Shown: positions 1,431 to 57,176 of the stretch, piece by piece
Position numbering within the stretch: position 1 is the stretch's first letter
Layout of the letters: every line of letters begins with the position of its first letter
Assembly (NCBI RefSeq): GCF_042242105.1
Contig: NC_092031.1
Span: 17,700,162-17,764,161, forward strand
Length of the DNA: 64,000 nucleotides
Origin: Pempheris klunzingeri
Lineage: Eukaryota > Chordata > Actinopteri > Acropomatiformes > Pempheridae
Direction: 5' to 3'
Translations under genes and position numbers: made by a program
The notes under the pieces: generated by a model
The model's database searches: none
Seen by the model: the letters and a program-made list of their open reading frames with translations, nothing else
What the model was told of the DNA's origin: nothing

Positions 1431-1876
1431 TTTCCCATTTAATTTGGAGTGAGATTGAAGTCAGTGCATTTATTGAGGAGGCCCTCAGTGACCCACCATA
1501 GGGGTCGGGGTCAGGGTCAACACTTTTCAACCCCCGGGACTTTTGTTTTCCATGTTTTACAGCAAAATTCATAATTTTAAAGCATTTGTAGACAAAAAGT
1601 AATCATGGTCAGTGACATGAAAGACATGACATGTAGCTGCTACAGGTATGCTCAGTGATACATGACCATATGTGTGGTGTGTTTCAAGCAAAATACATTT
1701 GTGTACAAGGGTTTGATATATTAGATAATATAGTGTAGCGGGAGGAATGGGTTCCCCTGTACTCACTCACTTATGGCAAAAAAAACACCAGTTTTCATGA
1801 CTCCTGAAACAGACAAAAAAAGACAAATGATGGCACTATTATAGATCAGTTTGACACTTAATAAATCAAATTTAAT

Positions 1877-1892
1877 AGAAAGGCCACTCACA
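1877..1892 (+). repeat. Left target-site duplication of the L1 insertion
   Basis: The 16-base string agaaaggccactcaca at this position recurs exactly at 3566-3581, immediately after the short A-run that ends the LINE. Perfect direct repeats flanking a 5'-truncated, A-tailed element are the signature of target-primed reverse transcription. The LINE body therefore begins at 1893. Confidence 0.85.
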
Positions 1893-3306
1893 GATGAGGT
1901 TGAGGAGATGTTAAACAGATGGACTAATTTGCCTATATCGATGATGGGACGAATAAATGTTATAAAAATGACAATTTTACCCAAATTTCTGTACTGTTTC
2001 CAAACACTTCCACTGCCATTACCAGCTTCGTTTTACGACAAATTAAACAAATTGTTCAGTCAATTTATTTGGAACAATAGGAAAGCAAGACTTCGTTTAA
2101 AGTTATTATATATGCCTTATGAGAGGGGAGGACTTCAGCTCCCAAACCTTAGATGGTATTATATGGCTGCCCAGCTAACATCAGCTACACATTATTTCTA
2201 TACAACCTCACCCCCAGCTTGGGTGAGCATTGAACAAAAGTCCATTCCAGAGTTACCTTTACAGAGCTATCTATACTCTTCAGATGCAAAAACACTAAAA
2301 AAACGTACTAAAAATCCATTTCTGAAAAATACAATTTCAGTATGGCACACTGCACACAAGCATGTAGGAGACCTTCCAGCACTCTCTCAGTTTGCCCCTA
2401 TTTGGGGAAATGAACAGTTCACACCTGGAAAAAAAGATGGAGGGTTTAGACTATGGAATATGAAGGGCATCCAGAAAATTAAGTAATCTGTACACGGATG
2501 GAGTTTTACTTACCTTTGAGCAACTATGTGAAAAATATCAAATTCCCTCAAAACATTTCTTTAAATATTTACAGCTAAAAAATTATATGTCATCCAGATC
2601 CAGACAGATTATGAATACCCCGTCATTATCAAAAATAGAAGAAGTCTCCCAAACAGAAGGGAAAGGTATGCTCTCTAGATATTATGATGCACTAATGTCT
2701 ACTTCCAAAGATTCAGCAAGGGACAAACTAAACACCTGGAGAAGTGACATCCAAGAAGACATAAATGAAATGGACTGGAACGAGGCCTGTTTAAAGGCAC
2801 AAAAGCAATCTATAAATACACGGTTTAGGCTACTTCAATATAAGTGGCTGATGAGGATGTATATGACCCCTGTTAAACTTCATCATATGTCCGATAATAT
2901 TCCAGATACATGTACCAAATGTCTCATTGAAAAAGGAACAATTCTTCACTGTCTATGGGAATGTCCAAAGATTCAGAAATTCTGGAATGATGTCATCAAA
3001 TGTCTGTCAGAGGTGTTTAATATCAACATCCCCTTCAATGCTAAACTTTGTGTACTTGGAATCTACCCAGTGGGCTTCACACAAACAGAGAAACAGACTA
3101 AATTGCTGGACTTCGGACTTTTACAAGCCAGGAGAGTGATTGCATTACGTTGGAAAAGTATGGATGCTCCCTCTATACAACAGTGGATAAAAGAACTCTC
3201 GGAATGTATTGGTCTGGAAAGACTAACCTACATTGTGAAAGGAAAACGAAGGGAATTTGTGTACCTCTGGGAACCATATATGACTATTATAGAAGCCGGA
3301 AAGTAA
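1893..3306 (+). pseudogene. LINE ORF2 C-terminal fragment, one frameshift
   Basis: Two overlapping stretches read as L1 ORF2. From 1893 to about 2484 the frame gives the thumb-like region (DEVEEMLNRWTNLPISMMGRINVIKM, then FIWNNRKARLRLKLLYMPYERGGLQLPNL). It stops at 2484-2486. The homologous sequence then continues in another frame (LYTDGVLLTFEQLCEKYQIPS and onward) to the stop at 3304-3306. The shift lies near the A-run at about 2474-2480. The final part has a C-x2-C-x8-H-x4-C arrangement typical of the L1 C-terminus. Apparent coding sequence upstream of 1893 in the same frame is host DNA, not LINE. Confidence 0.85.
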
Positions 3307-9862: not shown

Positions 9863-10386
9863 GTAAGAATTAACATTGACTCGGCATTGTGTAACAGCCA
9901 GGCGGCGAGTGTGAAAATATGAGCTAATTTATAGTTGATCCGCTGCCTGGTTAAATATTTTGACTATAAATTGTCCCCAAGAGTCCTCGGTAACGTGAAG
10001 TGACTGGGCTCCAGTGCTAATGTTAGCTACCGCTAGCTTTTCCTTCCACTTGGCTAAGTTATTGTGTGGTAGCCAACGTTTCCATTTGGACTGAGACGTG
10101 TATTGTTGCCTGACGGTGGCTTAGCTTCCTCCCTGTCTGATAACTGGCACCAACAGAATTAGGGGCGTTTTAATTACATTTCTCTCTGAGATGCTGTTTC
10201 TATACACAGGGCTTAAAACGTGATAATAACCTCTAAATCCAGAGAAATGAAGCAGTCAGTTGCATTACTGTCATTGTGTGGGACGGATCTGACATGCTGA
10301 CATGTCTGAGGTGTGTGACATCATGACCAACCTCCCTGTTTCTGCTCTCTTTTTTTTTCACAGAGGTGTCTGCTTTTTCCTCAAAG

Positions 10387-13300
10387 ATGGAGTCTCAGAA
10401 TTCAAACCTGACCTGCGTCATATGCCTGGAGCGTTTCCGAATCCCTGTCACCATCCCCTGCGGTCACACCTTCTGTCAAAAGTGCATCACCATGTGCTGG
10501 GACACCAAGAGCAAGTCTGACCTGGGACCTCAGTGCCCCATCTGCAACGAGGAGTTCCCCACCAGGCCCATCCTCAAACGTAACGTGTCCCTGTCTGTCC
10601 TGACCGAGGCCGCCAACAGCACCGGCCCCTCCTGCAGAGAGTCCCTGATGAGGGGGAGCGAAGGGGCCAGAGCCATGCTGCTGTGCGATCGCCATAAAAA
10701 GCCTCTGGTTTATTACTGCAGGCAGGATAAAATGTCTGTGTGCTGCGAGTGCGGCATCTCCGAATGCATGAATCACGAGAAGGTCTTGTTGGAGGCAGAG
10801 CGGGAAAATCAAGAGGTACAGTAACGTAACGCCACCACGGCCGCTTTAGTTTTAACTCCAGCGTGTGTGAAAGCCACTGTCTTAATTTGATGTGTTTTCC
10901 TTACAGCTGCTGCTAGAAAGGAAGAGTAAGGAGGTGGGGAAGCTCATGGAAGAGACGGAAAAAAGTATTAAGGACCTGGCTGAGAATATCAGTCAAGCCA
11001 AGGTTAGTTCCAGACATAAGACCTAAGACGTGCCTCAAACTCATTAGTTTTTCTCACCATGTCAGAAATGTGACTTAAAGGGGAATCAACTCAAAGCCAG
11101 AGAAGGAAGCTGTCCTTCAAACACAGGGATAGGGTTATGTTTGTTTGATCCATGATGTGACAGAAGCCTCGCTCCCCTTTACAGCAGTTGATAGAGTTCA
11201 AAAGAAGGTTAGTCGTCCCTTAGTATGCTTCAAACTGATCGAATGCTGAAATTCACACCAGTGTTTTTCAACTCTGGGTGGCTTACCACATTGGCACAAC
11301 TTCCAGCATCTGTCTCGCAGGTGGAGCCAGTTCTGATAGAAACTAGGCCATTCATTAGTCTCCTTGCACGCCCACAACACTTGTAATGCATTTGCAAGAA
11401 ACATTCAGGTGACTGACGAAGCTGCAGCTCAGAAGACAATTAAGCTTGATATTGGTGTAAATTAAGAATTAAAACACCAATAACTGTGCGTTCCCGGATT
11501 CCTCACAGCGGGCATATGAATGTGCGTCTTCCGCAGGTAACCCTTCAGCAGACTTCCACCTGGGTCAGTGTCAAGTTCTCCACCCTGATTAAGATACTGG
11601 CTGAGAAGCAGGAGGCGACGGAGCTCTTCATTGAGGAGCAGAAAGAAGCTGCCATCACTGAGGCGGAGGCGCGGCTGGCTGAGCTTGAGGAGCGTTCCAG
11701 GATCCTCCGAGAGAGCCAGGGACAGATAGCGGCCATACATAACCTCTCTGATACAGAGCTCATCAAGGTCCGTGCCCTGTCTTTACACTGTCGTTCTTTT
11801 GGTAACGTGTAAGAGTAACGGGAAAGATGCTTTCAAAGAGCCGTTCACCAGCACTTCTGACAAAATAATGTCCGGTAATGGATGGATTTTTAAATGTCTT
11901 CAGCACCTCTGACCACACCCCACAGTGGAGGTATAGCACTCAGCGAGGTGAATAGTTCTACTGCTAGATGGCAGCAAAAGCAGGATTATACCTGTCGTGT
12001 CGTGTCGTATCTGTTTATAGACCTAAAACCGCAAAGTGACAAAAAACTTTGATAACTTCCTGATCTAACTTTGAAAAGCGCCCGTGATCATTAAGGGAAT
12101 TAGTTATTTGTTGCTTTGACAGAAGGTTTTAGGCAGAGAATGTTTAAATGTGGATGGCATGACTGCTTCTCTTCTCTGCTGTGAGTCACCCACAGCGCTA
12201 CACACAGTTATATACTAGAGAGATTATTAGAAACACTTCAATATGATGCAGTCTAGTGACCTCAGTAAGAAACATCTCTCAGAACAAACGGTACCCAATA
12301 TAAGCTTTGTGAAGGTAGAATGTGTGGCAGTGCTGGATTTGCATTCCATTGTATAGGTGTACCTAATAAAGTGGTCAGGGAGTGTAGGTAAAACATCATG
12401 TGGATGTCTATAATGAAGGAGAGACATCTACATCCTAACCGTATGCCTTTGTGTTCTATGGTTAAATGACAATTATCAATCAAGCATCGAACCAAATGCA
12501 CGTCATCTAGGTCTTTTTTACGTCTTCACAGGAGTCACTGCTTATAGAAGTTCCACGTTTTAAGGATATACCCACAGACGTAACGCCAAACCTCCAGGAG
12601 CGATTAAACAGCGCCACAGACGTCCTGTCCCGAGTCTCCAAGCTGGTGTGTGAGGACCTGGAGAAAGCTGTGAGCACCGCTGTGGGTCAGGACAAAGACG
12701 GTAATCTGCCTCTGGGGAAAGATGCCCCCCCCGTAGGAAGTTAACTGGTTTTGATAGCAGTTTGTTCCCCAGTTTTTCGCTCTGTGTTCTCAAGCTTGTC
12801 ACCGGTCTGCAGGTTCCCCTCAGGATAAGAGGCCGATCCTAGCTGTGGTCCCCAGTCCAGCTGCCCCGTGCCACCCTGGTGGGAGGGAAGGCCTTAGCGC
12901 TTGTAAGTCCTGTCTAACATTTTAGACTGCAGGTTTGCGTTAGACATTTACCAGATTATGTGATCAGTTCTTGCCTGATTCTTCTCTTCCTCATCACAGA
13001 CCGATGCTCTCTGACCTTTGACCCTCGCACGGCCAACCAGCACCTGTCTCTGTCCCAGGAGAACCGGAGGGCGGAGCACCTGACCTCGGGCCCTCGCCCC
13101 GTCCCGGCCCACGAAGCCCGCTTCGATCACACCTGGCAGGTGCTCTGCTTTGAGGGCTTCACCCACGGGCGGCACTACTGGGAGCTGGAGGTGTCCAAGC
13201 CGTGGGCCTACCTCGGGGTAAAGAACCGTGCACGTTGTGTTGGTATACGGAGTGGTTCATTGAGGGTCTGATATTCAGGCAATACATTTTTTACAGTATC

Positions 13301-14541
13301 TGAAATGAACTGTACCAGCAACTGTGAGCAACTGTTAAAATGAAAATGAATGATTCATTTTTTTTATTATAACCAGCTAAATTCCCAGATAGATATACTT
13401 AACATAGAAATATGGAAAAAGTTTGCAGATGTTGCTACTCCTTTTTGTAGAGCCAGTGCAATATGCAGCTTATTTGAGTCAAAGCCAATAGTTTGCTTTG
13501 ACTCGACTGATGATGCTCAGTGTGGTAGTTACACTAAAGTGTTTTTCAGGTGAACCTTTCCTGCCAAATGTGCCCCACACAGATTTTACTTTCATGTGGC
13601 ACCATTCGGGTGGTTGTTTTAGACGATCCAACCTTTATGATTTTTCCATCAATATTGGAATTGATGCATAACAAAGTAGCGCTTATTTTCCTTTGCGTCG
13701 ACTCAAATGAATCTAACAGCAGCCCAGAGAGGTCTGCAGCTTCATCAGCAGCTCTGTGACACTTTGATTTGTACTCGGGCACAGCGGCGCTCTGAGCTAA
13801 ATGCTGACATCACCATGCCCAGCACGCTCAAAATGACAACCGTGGCATCGATCGCGTCAAACATGGTGATGTGAAGCAGGTATAATGTGGACTATCTTGC
13901 TTGAGCAGGTTGATTGTATCGACCTGCTGGTGGCGCTGGAGGAAGAGTCGGGGGATCGCCGGTGATCAGGATGCATCCTCTGGGCTTCACGAATGTCAAC
14001 ATTTTGTGCTAAGACATCCAGTTGAAGTATAGACATGTCCGCAGACCTGTGGGTGGAGAGGATTCATCCTCTGGGCACAGTGGATGAATGTGCCGAGCTT
14101 GATAGCAATCCATTAAATAGGTGCCACCAGAGTTAGGACTGGTCCCACGTGTGAGTCTGCCTCGGCACAGCCTTCCTTTTTCCCTTGTGCCGCACACTTT
14201 TCATCTACATGTTCTCCTGTGCCTCCTGCCAGGTAACCTACAAGACCATCCCCAGGAAGGAGAAGGGGAAGAGGTGCATGGTGGGTATGAATGAACTGTC
14301 CTGGAGCCTGCAGCTGGACGAGCATCAGCTCAGCGCCTGGCACAACGGCCGGCGGGAGACTCTGACCGGCCACTCCCAGCACGGCCGCATAGGGATGCTG
14401 CTGGACTACGAGGCGGGGACGCTCACCTACTACGGAGACGGGCAGACCAGGCTCCACGCCTTCCACTGTGCCTTCACCCAGGAGCTGTTCCCCGCCTGCT
14501 GGATAGGAGAGGGGGTTAGCATCACCCTCTGCTCCCCGTGA
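10387..14541 (+). CDS. trim65: E3 ubiquitin ligase TRIM65 (RING, B-box, coiled coil, SPRY)
   Basis: Seven coding exons: 10387-10815, 10907-11002, 11537-11767, 12532-12700, 12813-12902, 13000-13217, 14233-14541. The total is 1542 bases, 513 aa. The RING finger is at residues 10-53 (C10, C13, C25, H27, C30, C33, C50, C53). The B-box is at about 100-130 (CDRHKKPLVYYC...CCECG...CMNHE). A coiled coil spans about 130-265. The PRY-SPRY domain covers about 340-513 (LTFDPRTANQHLSLS, GRHYWELEV, GMLLDYEAGTLTYYGDG). The 96- and 231-base exons match the usual TRIM exon lengths. TRIM65 identity rests on position beside mrpl38 and likeness to the human SPRY part (NLTFDPVSANRHFYLS). In mammals it ubiquitinates MDA5 and TNRC6; that activity is inferred here. 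The first in-frame ATG after the acceptor at 10363 is at 10387. Confidence 0.92.
12200..12390 (+). repeat. Dispersed repeat ending 'acctaataaagtgg' (trim65 intron 3)
   Basis: The blocks gatgcagtctagtgacctca, gtaagaaacatctctcagaa and the end aggtgtacctaataaagtgg appear in order. This ending is shared by a short repeat I have seen widely in teleosts. It is non-coding and its boundaries are approximate. Confidence 0.6.
13735..14115 (+). repeat. Copy of the 'cagcagctctgtga' dispersed repeat (trim65 intron 6)
   Basis: Shares cagcagctctgtga (13746-13759) exactly with 25792-25805, followed by gagctaaatgctgacatca, ggtataatgt, ggtggcgctggaggaagagtc and catcctctggg blocks in the family order. It fills much of the intron upstream of the last SPRY exon. 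Confidence 0.65.
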
Positions 14542-46506: not shown

Positions 46507-46512
46507 ATTAAA
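46507..46512 (+). promoter_or_regulatory. Candidate poly(A) signal for the H3.3 gene
   Basis: ATTAAA, the commonest variant signal, about 560 bases after the stop codon. It lies only about 90 bases from the minus-strand signal of the convergent neighbour. Confidence 0.5.
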
Positions 46513-46601: not shown

Positions 46602-46607
46602 TTTATT
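46602..46607 (-). promoter_or_regulatory. Candidate poly(A) signal for the RUN-PDZ-PTB gene
   Basis: AATAAA on the minus strand, only about 36 bases after the stop codon at 46643-46645, giving an unusually short 3' UTR. Confidence 0.5.
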
Positions 46608-46642: not shown

Positions 46643-49600
46643 TCATACAAACCACTCCGTATGCTTGAAACCCGTAGCTGTAAAGATAACGACAAAATCA
46701 TGACATCTTGGCTGTGAAGAATTTTGGATCACTTGTGTATTGCTCACATGCTGTGCCTCACCAATACGGCAGACTATCTCCTCACACTCCTTAATGGTGC
46801 TGGCTCGGAGTGCCACACAGCAGAAGCCTGTCGACTGAGGGGTTTCTGGGGAGTCTCTGTGAACAGAGCCAATCATATACTGAGATGATGTCTGGGTCCA
46901 GCCAATGACAACACAGCTGTACTGTCTTGGGTATTGCATCATCACATGTTTATGGAGAGGTGTGTCCTAAACTACTGTAGGCCTGGATTAATGGCTGTGT
47001 GGGAAAAACCTTTATTTTTCTGCCGCTAAATCTGACAGTTCTGCTCTTCAAAGGTTTGACGGGTTCATTTGGTACTTACGCCACACAGAATGCAAATATG
47101 GTGTAGTCTGGTTGACCAAATCTCCCCACACACGAAATCTCTGGATAATGATGTTCAAACAGCTCCTGTGGAAACACGAACACAGTTGACCTGTTAACGA
47201 CCAATGTCGAGCAATAGCAAAGACGGCACAGACAAATGTCTCCTTACCAGTTTACTGCTTCTGTCTGTGCAGGTCAAATGGGTTTCCTTCATGTCTAAAA
47301 GCACTTCCTGCAGGGCAAATTGAAACAGATTGAACACACATTGATATTGACAAGTGCTTTGCAGAACATGACAGTAGTGTTATTACCTTGCTGGGCAGGT
47401 TTTTCTGCAACACTTGTGGAATGGCGTGCTGTAGCACTTCCTTGCCTCCAAACTAAGAAAGGATAAGACCAGATATATCAGTTATCTGAGTCTAGCACAT
47501 ATATACACACACAGATTGAACATTTAATAAAGTGTAAAGCAAAAGCATTTGTTTACCATTCCAATGTTTGCCTTTCCCAAGAACTGCACTATGTACACAA
47601 TTCTGTAGGGAGAGTAGAGTCAGTGTTATAATGGAAAGAGTAAACTTGGCAAAATGTTCCTTAAATGGCTCTTCCAGATTTGGTAAGCAACTTGCCTTCC
47701 CTCTTTGAGACACTGTGACGGAGAGGTTCTCTCGTCCTTGGTGGCTGACTGTTGGGAGGAAGCAGGACTGAGCTGTAGGGTGGGGTTCTCCATCCTCAGG
47801 GTCCGCAGGAGTTTGATAAGGGGCCGATACACTGTTCCATCGTGAGCCCTCCACCGCAGGACATTGATGGACAGAGGGCTGCCCTTCAGCCGAGACAAAA
47901 CCACACCTGCCTGGGAAACAGAGCAATGCACCGTGACTCTATGTACGACAGCTTCTATGACTTGTGCAGTGGCAGGTTTTTTTTAATTACGCAAACTCGT
48001 CTTGTCAAGGGTGTGACTGGCCAGTGTCCCATGGGTTCGATCAATCGGACAACACTCACAGAATGTGAGCTGTGCTTCTTGGCTGTTCTCATTTTTGTAC
48101 CTATCTTCAAGTGGGATCGCGTTCACAATGATAACAAGAAGAGTCTTGTATACCCAGTCAGGCGTTGCCACTATTTTCTGGCTGATTAGAGTTCTGTTCA
48201 TGTAGAGGGTGCAGCTGTGCTGGGCATTGTGTAATGTCACCAAACTACACATAATCACAAAAATGATTAAGTGCACATTGTCCCTCCCTAACTGCCTAAA
48301 GTCATAGGAGTATCAGGGAGATGTCTCTTTCACAGTCTGTACATACCAACCCAAAGTCAGCACAATGTCTAATCAGGGCACTTTTGAGAAGCCGTCAGTG
48401 TAAAGCTCAGTTCACTGCACCTACACTTTACTTTGTGTTCTGTGATGGCTCAAATGTCTGATATTAATTTATTTAACACCAGCTACACTGTGGTGACACA
48501 GAGCACACATGATGTCTGTGACCGTCAGTGAGTGTTAGAACGTATAATACTGCTTGTTTGAGGATACCTGTCCACTCTTGGAGTTCCGCAACGAGGTCCC
48601 GTTGATCTCATCAATGAGGTCACCAGGAGAGATAAACTTGTCGACATGAGCCTGACTCCCAGGCACCAGATCGAGGACAAAGACGCGCCCACTGAGATAT
48701 CTGAGAGACAGAGGGGGAGTGGATGCAGCAGTTCGAACAAAGCTATTTATGAGTAGATATTCTTGATGGAAATAAAGCACTTTATAGAGTGGGAGATACA
48801 AACCTCAACACCATCCCTACCTCCCGACAGGGCACCACTTCATATGTCTCACACACCTGGAAACATTCGAAACAATTAACAGACAATCTCACACATTCTG
48901 CTGTTCCGTTATCTCACTGCGATGTGTGCCTTTCCATGCATTTTCAGAGTTACTATCATTGTTTTTACCGGTATGAGCCAGCTCTCATCCAGAAAACTGC
49001 AATTCTGTGAAAAAAGACCAGAGGTGGTTGTTAGTGTAGAGTCATTTGAATTGAATTGCTCAAACCACATGATTGTAGACATGGTTGTATTTTGGTGTGT
49101 GTGTGTATGAAAATATTGAAAATGGCTTGTGCATTTGCAATTTAATGGTATAAAAAAGGAGTTGCTCTGACCTCTACGTTCAGTTTAAACTCCATGTGAG
49201 AGAGGACAAGCAGCAGTGACATGAAAGGCTCTGGAAGAGGGAAAATATTTGTTGTTGACGTTGGACACAGAATTTCCTGGGCTTTGCTCAGCATTTAGTG
49301 GAAACAATCAGATCCGGTAAAAAGCCTCACCCACGAATTCCTCATTCCTGAGGAGTGACATTGCCGGACTGTACCACTGGAGGGGAGAGAAACGGTATGA
49401 ACCCAAGCTATTTTAGTATCTGAGACAGACTTACTTAAATTTGAATCAAGTCTAGCGACTGGGCATGTTTGGTGGACACTTTGCCCAGAGCACCCAACAG
49501 CAACAAGAGAAGACACATATGGGCAGCACCAGAAAAGACCATCAACCCCTAAATATGTGCGTTGTAGAAAATGTATCTGGTCCATGCGGCTGACCTCCAG

Positions 49601-50669
49601 GACTCTGGGGGTGTGCAGCAGGTGTGTGATGAACTGTGGCAGAACCTTGCGGCCGAGGGCCAGTCTGAGCAGGTAGCGGCCTCGGCCCTGAGCTGAGAGC
49701 AGCTTCCTGCAAGCTCTGGTCTGCTCCACCACCAAGGACAGGGCAGACAGCCTACACACACACACACCAGCAGAGACAGCAGGTATTAACAGGGCGTGAA
49801 ATAATGCTGTTGTTATTAAAGTAACGTCTATTACATTATACAGTTATAGTAATGTTAAAATGCAGTTCATGATGTTGTTACCTGCCACAGGCATCTTGGT
49901 GGATCAGCTGTTCAAAACACTGCCAGTAGTCTCTGTGTACCAGACTGAGAACTGGCTCTGGAGGGAGAGCAACACACACTCAGTCCATACAGCAAAAACA
50001 CATGTTCACATGTAGTGCTTCAAATGATTAAGGTATTCTGACCCAAAACATTGTGTTTTATACACCTGTTCCAACCATTTAAAGCATAAACTGACACCCC
50101 AACATATGTAGTTGTTAATGTCAGGCATGTGCACTTGCAATAGAGCATTTTGACAAATAAGTACAGAGGTGATATATTTTAGGGGAAGCCCACATTGTGG
50201 GGACACTCACGTTGAAGCCCCTTCCTAAAGACCAGCTCAAGAAGCTCACAGCAAGAAGCGAGGTGAGGGTTGGTGTCGGTCACGGTGTCTCCATCTGACT
50301 GCAGGTTCAGGACACAGACTGGGAGGGGGAAAAAACAGAGGATCTGTTGTAGGTCTGGTCAAAAACATACGTTTTTCATGCATCCTGCGTGATCGTCGCC
50401 TTTACACGCATCATCACTATTACAGAAGCGGCACGGCAGATACTGTTCATGTAAAAAAGAGAAGAAAAAACACTGGTTTTGTGTGCAACAGGAATACAAC
50501 TGAAATGATCAAAACAGGTGTCACTGTATCGACAAATAAGACGCGCGACACACGACGAAGCAATCTGCTGCCACTGGAAGCGAAATTATAATCCAAAAGC
50601 CTTTGCATTTTGCATTGATTATGCATCCTTACCTTTGAGAGTGCCGAGCAGAGGGTCTTTAGGAGCCAT
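46643..50669 (-). CDS. RUN-PDZ-PTB domain protein, unnamed
   Basis: Sixteen coding exons (transcript order): 50669-50633, 50318-50211, 49957-49882, 49751-49595, 49376-49331, 49230-49172, 49004-48969, 48856-48804, 48700-48568, 47910-47696, 47602-47557, 47452-47387, 47307-47248, 47165-47080, 46856-46762, 46677-46643. The total is 1308 bases, 435 aa, all in phase. Residues about 30-170 look like a RUN domain (CCELLELVFRKGL, HRDYWQCFEQLI, EFVEPFMSLLLVLSHMEF). Residues about 185-265 look like a PDZ domain (GRVFVLDLVPGSQA, ISPGDLIDEINGTSL, SPLSINVLRW). Residues about 305-435 look like a PTB/PID domain (RIVYIVQFLGKANIGM, CVALRASTIKECEEIV). Such a layout suggests a cytoplasmic adaptor linking small GTPases to membrane proteins; that is inference. 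I cannot name a mammalian counterpart. The intron after exon 10 has a GC donor. It is head-to-head with the SPRY gene. Confidence 0.88.
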
Positions 50670-56205: not shown

Positions 56206-57176
56206 CACCTTATCAATGAAAGCACAATACTCACTCTCCTTTTAGCTCTGTTTTGGTCTCCAGCCCTCCTTGGGGAAATATCTGGCTCTTTAGCTGCTCC
56301 ATGCCAACTGTGCCTGTGTGCTGTGCACAGTGAGTTCATTAGAGATGCTAAAAACAGCCCTGATAAACAGCTGGCTGAAAATTCACTGTGAGCGACTTTC
56401 TCACCTTCCACACAGTCACTGGATCTGTTGAGGCTAGAAACATTTTTATGTGTAGCAGCTTTAAAAGTTTCTCTTCTTTGTCTTTGCAGTCTGGAATTGG
56501 ATTTGTGATGCTGCAGGTATGAAAAAACCATTTACAATCACATCATCTCTTTTCCTCGTTATAATCTCTTTGCAGATTTTACAGTCTGTAATCATTCTTG
56601 GTCTGTAACTCCACAGAGGAAGTGACTCTGGACTCAGACTCCGCCAACCCTGACCTGCTCCTCTCCAGCGATGAAAAGCGCATGCGGTGCGGCCTGCAGC
56701 GCCAGGAAGTCCCACGGTGCCAGAAACGCTTCAACGGCTGGTGGTGCGCCGCGGGCCGGGAGAGCTACGCCTCCGGGCGCCACTACTGGGAGGTGGAGGT
56801 GGGTGAGCGGGACTGGCGGCTGGGCGTGGCCAAGGCGTCTGCGGCGAGGCAGGGCTTCCGCTCATTCAACACAGACACAGGCTACCTGACCCTCCGTCTG
56901 GAGAGGGGCACAGATCTGAAAGCCCTGACGGTGCCCGCCACCCCGCTGCCACAGTGCATGGTGCCCAGGAAGGTCGGGGTGTACCTGGACTATGAGCAGG
57001 GCCAGCTGTCCTTCTACGACGTGGAGAAGCGCTCCCACCTGTACACCTTCAACGAGAAGTTCACAGAGGAACTGTTCCCCGTGTTCGGGACTGTGGAGGT
57101 GGTCAAAGAGCTGGTGCTAAGGCCTGCAGACGTCAGACAGCCGTGCCTCTGCCCCGGGCCCTGCCTCTGGAACTGA
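53178..57176 (+). CDS. SPRY/B30.2 protein with unrecognised N-terminal half
   Basis: Nine coding exons: 53178-53240, 53373-53471, 53559-53666, 53925-54083, 55010-55150, 55402-55453, 55792-55818, 56490-56516, 56617-57176. The total is 1236 bases, 411 aa, in phase throughout. Residues about 228-405 are a complete PRY-SPRY domain (LDSDSANPDLLLSSD, SGRHYWEVEVGERDWRLGV, GVYLDYEQGQLSFYD, FTEELFPVF). Residues 1-225 are not RING, B-box or Ig. They start MMKDCLQFLIEPAKKLKIRLK and contain tryptophan-rich segments (NILGHIWTSEDVWPASVCREFIVEWAAVLEKRV, MDWTREIK, SVWNWICDAAE). Two consecutive 27-base phase-1 mini-exons precede the SPRY exon, recalling the mini-exons of butyrophilin genes. There is no signal peptide or membrane segment. 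The start is the first ATG in the exon (a second follows at once). Function is unknown; SPRY suggests protein binding. Confidence 0.88.
54263..54960 (+). mobile_element. MITE-like teleost repeat in SPRY-gene intron 4
   Basis: Starts ttaaagggatagtttggatt, then gaagtggggttgtgtaaggt, cttatccatagtcagtgtgt, agtttgggaggagcaggcag and, near the end, ggtggctaaaatcctttttatt and cagcagtacattgctgag. I recognise this as a non-autonomous element common in percomorphs whose ends resemble TTAAAGGGATAGTT. The right end is degraded and lies about 50 bases upstream of the exon 5 acceptor. Confidence 0.65.
56172..56204 (+). repeat. GT microsatellite
   Basis: About 33 bases of uninterrupted (GT)n in the intron between the two 27-base exons of the SPRY gene. 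Confidence 0.95.

Follow-up and report, generated by a model that had tools for sequence, protein, structure and literature searches.

The window, by which we mean the whole stretch of 64,000 nucleotides that was analysed, holds on its minus strand a gene that runs from an ATG at 50669 to a stop codon ending at 46643. Its 16 coding exons encode 458 amino acids with a RUN domain, a PDZ domain and a putatively PTB-like C-terminal part. Around this RUN-PDZ-PTB-like gene, the following features were recognised:

10327-14538, plus strand: RING, PRY and SPRY exons (Pfam), with a B-box match below cut-off
near 19.7-20.2 kb: proline-rich WBP2-like stretch, named by eye, no Pfam match
27.7 kb: C2-domain exon (Pfam), presumably UNC13D
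41-43.5 kb: UNK, matched by two Unkempt-type zinc-finger models
45.3-45.9 kb, plus strand: H3.3, recognised from its sequence, no Pfam match in the one frame scanned
46602..46607, minus strand: candidate poly(A) signal AATAAA of the RUN-PDZ-PTB-like gene
56592-57173, plus strand: PRY-SPRY exon (Pfam)
59.7-60.9 kb: three FN3 exons (Pfam), one of them below cut-off, presumably ITGB4

The H3.3 gene on the plus strand and the RUN-PDZ-PTB-like gene on the minus strand converge, and their candidate polyadenylation signals, ATTAAA at 46507 and AATAAA at 46607, lie about 100 bases apart. PRY-SPRY exons flank the block on both sides (10327-14538 and 56592-57173, both plus) and presumably belong to TRIM-type genes. 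Two long open frames at 1845-3303 (plus strand) resemble by eye the end of a LINE-type element; the first of them has no Pfam match.

To build the gene model, exon cores were located by translation, the donor and acceptor pairs that keep the frame were listed, and the exons were assembled; at some junctions several pairs kept the frame, and there the choice was made on consensus and by eye. The resulting model is as follows, with all features on the minus strand and introns included in the domain spans:

50633..50669, minus: exon 1, ATG at 50669-50667, donor AAG/GTAAGG
50211..50318, minus: exon 2, start of RUN, K45 in FRKGL
49882..49957, minus: exon 3, RUN
49595..49751, minus: exon 4, RUN, GRGRYLLR with R97, R99 and R103
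49331..49376, minus: exon 5, RUN
49172..49230, minus: exon 6, end of RUN
48969..49004, minus: exon 7, interval between RUN and PDZ
48804..48856, minus: exon 8, probably the first PDZ strands, with a putative carboxylate loop EVGM at residues 185-188
48568..48700, minus: exon 9, PDZ core
47696..47910, minus: exon 10, end of PDZ and linker, GC donor
47557..47602, minus: exon 11, PTB-like strand 1, IVYIVQFLG
47387..47452, minus: exon 12, PTB-like helix 1
47248..47307, minus: exon 13, PTB-like strands
47080..47165, minus: exon 14, PTB-like strands, EISCVGR...TIFAFCVA
46762..46925, minus: exon 15, insert followed by the probable last strand and the beginning of the C-terminal helix, placed by the MAFFT alignment only
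46643..46677, minus: exon 16, ATGFKHTEWFV and stop, possible end of the PTB-like helix (MAFFT only) and possible PDZ ligand
49172..50250, minus: RUN span, Pfam match, residues 36-161
47869..48687, minus: PDZ span, Pfam match, residues 196-249
46643..47601, minus: PTB-like span, residues ~308-458, from custom profiles, Pfam below cut-off

The rebuilt model has the same coordinates and the same number of exons, 16, as those proposed in an earlier, sequence-only reading of this DNA. That reading also described in-phase exons with good splice sites, and in the rebuilt model the frame is indeed kept throughout: all junctions are in phase, with GT-AG borders at 14 introns and GC-AG (AAG/GCAAGT) at intron 10. 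The product it gave, 435 amino acids, has to be corrected, as the spliced coding sequence yields 458. The GC content at third codon positions of the coding sequence is 0.61, compared with a GC content of 0.41 in the introns. Read in its other two frames, the spliced sequence contains 15 and 17 stops, and 2000 base-shuffled versions of the coding sequence have on average 20 internal stops and at least 4, a contrast that is partly built in and thus somewhat overstated, since the exon cores were picked for being open. The RUN match crosses the junctions of exons 2-6 and the PDZ match crosses the junction of exons 9-10, so that homology backs these junctions. Upstream of the gene start, in windows of 51.0-52.0 kb, the observed/expected ratio of CpG rises to 0.8-1.2. 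Intron 15 (46678-46761, 84 bases) is the only one of the 15 introns that is both a multiple of three in length and free of stops, and hence a retained-intron form is possible, which would add 28 residues, giving 486 amino acids, and keep the C-terminus. Judged from these features, the gene looks real and intact.

When the whole protein was compared with Pfam, RUN and PDZ were the only matches at E values up to 1. The RUN domain (PF02759) matched residues 36-161 with an E value of 5.5e-14 and 52.9 bits against a curated cut-off of 22, bearing out the RUN domain of the sequence-only reading. Among the best 60 of 73 PDB matches of the whole protein, the RUN chains were PLEKHM1 (E 0.0038) and RUFY3 (E 0.42). 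Genome profile searches run exon by exon gave 26 matches for PF02759 and 33 for PF00640; the RUN-PDZ-PTB-like locus was among neither, as is expected for domains that are split into small exons, though these searches lend the assignments no support.

According to a report on PLEKHM1 (PMC5379943), residues H60, R117, R119 and R123 of its RUN domain are important for Arl8b binding. The block GRGRYLLR (residues 96-103) of the fish protein aligns with GRCRAWLR of PLEKHM1, and by spacing R97, R99 and R103 presumably match R117, R119 and R123. In a non-significant alignment (i-Evalue 190), K45 is paired with the H of HGL in Rab6-interacting protein 1, and this histidine may be the equivalent of PLEKHM1 H60. 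Similar blocks occur in RUFY3 (GRGRAWLR) and, loosely, in Rab6-interacting protein 1 (GKARAWVR, not significant alone). Since GRxRxxxR is common to other RUN domains, it argues for an intact RUN surface and does not pick out a single GTPase such as Arl8. The earlier suggestion of a link between the RUN domain and a GTPase gains some support from these counterparts of the basic PLEKHM1 residues, although other RUN domains share the motif.

The PDZ domain (PF00595) matched residues 196-249 with an E value of 1.9e-5 and 25.4 bits, above the curated cut-off of 23.2, as had been proposed; the segment alone reached 27.9 bits. The best PDZ chain among the best 60 of 73 PDB matches of the whole protein was InaD-like protein (E 1.1e-4). 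The protein had been described as almost free of linkers, which is true between RUN and PDZ but not between PDZ and the PTB-like part, where some 45-60 residues intervene. Helix B of a class I PDZ domain typically begins with a histidine. In a gap-free alignment, S233 takes the place of this histidine in RNASHEQAA of PSD-95, so that by this rule the domain would not be a standard class I PDZ. The protein itself ends in E-W-F-V, where positions 0 and -2 are hydrophobic; such a C-terminus is compatible with the rule for PDZ ligands of the hydrophobic type. One may speculate that the C-terminus docks into the protein's own PDZ domain or that of a partner and so regulates access to it. The MAFFT alignment puts the EWFV residues within the C-terminal helix of the PTB fold, and this speaks against a free tail.

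Against Pfam, the C-terminal segment alone matched the PTB family PF08416 with an E value of 0.088 and 13.3 bits, below the cut-off of 27, and no match to PF00640 was reported. A phmmer search of the PDB with this part, at E values up to 10, returned no PTB chain and one irrelevant match (E 0.76). Custom profiles were also used. The smaller one was built from 12 PTB sequences taken from PDB alignments, with the query left out: DAB1, DAB2, the engulfment adapter GULP1, APBA1, APBA2, APBB1, APBB2, human Numb, Numb-like, a second Numb that we take to be the fly's, SHC1 and part of ANKS1B. The ANKS1B stretch was used and TBC1D1 was left out, as the TBC1D1 PTB seed had retrieved no TBC1D1 chain. 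On this profile, the query segment scored 12.9 bits, compared with 7.4 for the best of 2000 shuffles, and the unsplit 458-residue protein only 9.7. The comparison set comprised 973 open reading frames of at least 60 residues from the window and from fetched genomic loci. Twenty-one of the 973 outscored the query, the best at 67.6 bits, and every one of them came from a locus fetched with PF00640; the best frame outside PTB loci reached 6.7 bits. On a profile widened to 32 sequences the margin was thin: the query had 11.4 bits, the top-scoring one among 5000 shuffles 10.2 and the best frame outside PTB loci 5.4.

The HMMER alignments cover residues 7-91 of the segment, from IVYIVQFLG to FAFCV, on the 12-sequence profile and residues 7-89 on the 32-sequence profile. 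Past this stretch the only alignment is that of MAFFT, which aligns any input; it sets IATGF on IGQAF in the C-terminal helix of PTB domains and leaves an insert ahead of the last strand. Comparison of the single C-terminal sequence with the PTB alignment by hhalign gave a probability of 18% in local mode (P 0.0013) and 2% in global mode (P 0.0083), a result that does not by itself support a PTB domain. Given that single PTB exons of this genome reach 67.6 bits, the query is at best a very diverged member of the family. On these comparisons, the PTB-like nature of the C-terminal part is probable, not established. The PTB-like domain of the sequence-only reading thus fails the Pfam cut-offs and passes, weakly, on a custom profile where it ranks above all shuffles. 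As that reading had named the lack of a significant RUN or PTB match as evidence against itself, the outcome is divided: RUN passes, whereas PTB fails by Pfam and passes the custom test weakly.

Several known proteins share parts of this arrangement. The Arl8b effectors PLEKHM1 and PLEKHM2/SKIP resemble the fish protein in having a RUN domain with the arginines of the GRxRxxxR block, although the similarity of their RUN domains to it amounts only to E values of 0.0038 to 0.006. SKIP carries PH domains and PLEKHM1 carries PH domains and a C1 zinc finger, unlike the query, while the X11/Mint proteins (APBA1-3) combine PTB and PDZ in one adaptor, as the query does, with one PTB and two PDZ domains, which it does not have. 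RUFY3 and Rab6-interacting protein 1 have the RUN core block in common with the query. The latter is presumably DENND5A, and the remainder of the two proteins consists of coiled coil and of DENN/PLAT modules. In X11/Mint the order is PTB-PDZ-PDZ and the C-terminal tail docks into the protein's own PDZ. RGS12 has a PDZ and then a PTB, as in the query, followed by RGS, RBD and GoLoco. To our knowledge, PLEKHM1 and PLEKHM2/SKIP have no PDZ or PTB, and neither X11/Mint nor RGS12 has a RUN domain. No PDB chain with the RUN-PDZ-PTB order was found among the matches listed (the best 60 of 73, 1 of 1, the best 60 of 105 and 5 of 5). In the literature searched, mainly open-access, no description of a single protein with RUN, PDZ and PTB was found. 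The protein brings known modules together in an unusual way and does not represent a new kind of system.

When the fish's own genome was searched for paralogues, 13 matches appeared at E values up to 10, all 13 inside the RUN-PDZ-PTB-like locus; since the search takes the best candidates one exon at a time, a distant paralogue split into small exons could have escaped it. Among bacterial and archaeal contigs, a scan gave 17 pattern matches, none of which was confirmed. Human 17q25.1 presumably contains ITGB4, GALK1, H3-3B, UNK, UNC13D, WBP2, TRIM47 and TRIM65, and we know of no RUN gene in this block. With some of the fish names assigned by resemblance, the neighbours of the RUN-PDZ-PTB-like gene resemble the human ITGB4-H3-3B-UNK-UNC13D-WBP2 block.

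These results bear on three other accounts of the locus. That it is a pseudogene, or that exons of two genes were wrongly joined, is highly improbable: one donor is GC and the exon cores were chosen as open, but 458 open codons over 16 exons with coding composition speak against it, as do RUN and PDZ matches that cross exon junctions. An account that deserves more weight, though we consider it unlikely, is that of a protein with RUN and PDZ domains in which the C-terminal part is something other than a ligand-binding PTB. That part could be unrelated to PTB domains, could be a diverged PTB that has lost NPxY binding, or could have another PH-like fold and serve as structural support or as a platform for a GTPase. 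PH-like domains do follow RUN in the SGSM proteins, and the lack of a Pfam PTB match over the cut-off, the lack of a PTB chain among PDB matches at E values up to 10, the low hhalign probability and the narrow margin on the 32-sequence profile all fit such a protein. Yet HMMER aligns the segment to PTB profiles and ranks it ahead of all shuffles in both tests, and the placing of IATGF on the PTB C-terminal helix agrees with this, with the reservation that MAFFT will align any sequence it is given. The PTB fold is thus supported by profile comparison, not proven.

The gene may also be an ordinary one, the orthologue of a fish or other vertebrate gene that has already been named or described. 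This is quite possible, even if we do not favour it, and it is compatible with a function as an adaptor. Because the neighbourhood is like a conserved vertebrate block, orthologues probably exist and are probably present in automatic annotation. On the other hand, no such protein turned up in the mainly open-access literature searched.

We favour, with a probability of roughly 0.6, the reading that this gene of a teleost-like vertebrate encodes an adaptor, or scaffold, that links a GTPase-marked membrane to PTB and PDZ ligands. Its function is deduced from its parts. Through its RUN domain the protein would bind an Arl8/Rab-type small GTPase in its active state and thereby be recruited to a membrane of endosomes or lysosomes. 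There, its PTB-like domain would recognise NPxY-like tails on membrane proteins and its PDZ domain C-terminal tails, with the outcome that cargo or receptors are tied to the GTPase-marked membrane. Docking of the EWFV C-terminus into the protein's own PDZ or a partner's might regulate access. The identity of the GTPase, the ligands, the membrane site and the self-docking are all predicted from the domains. A bolder proposal, which we put forward as doubtful, is that of a RUN-PDZ-PTB family of vertebrate adaptors that was kept in the fish ITGB4-H3.3 interval and lost in mammals, that couples an Arl/Rab GTPase to NPxY cargo, and that locks itself via its C-terminal PDZ ligand.

If the domains act as proposed, one protein of 458 residues would connect receptor tails of two kinds with a GTPase-marked membrane, a task that is usually divided among several proteins. 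The absence of the gene from humans, if confirmed, would suggest that a trafficking adaptor is retained by some vertebrates and is dispensable in mammals.
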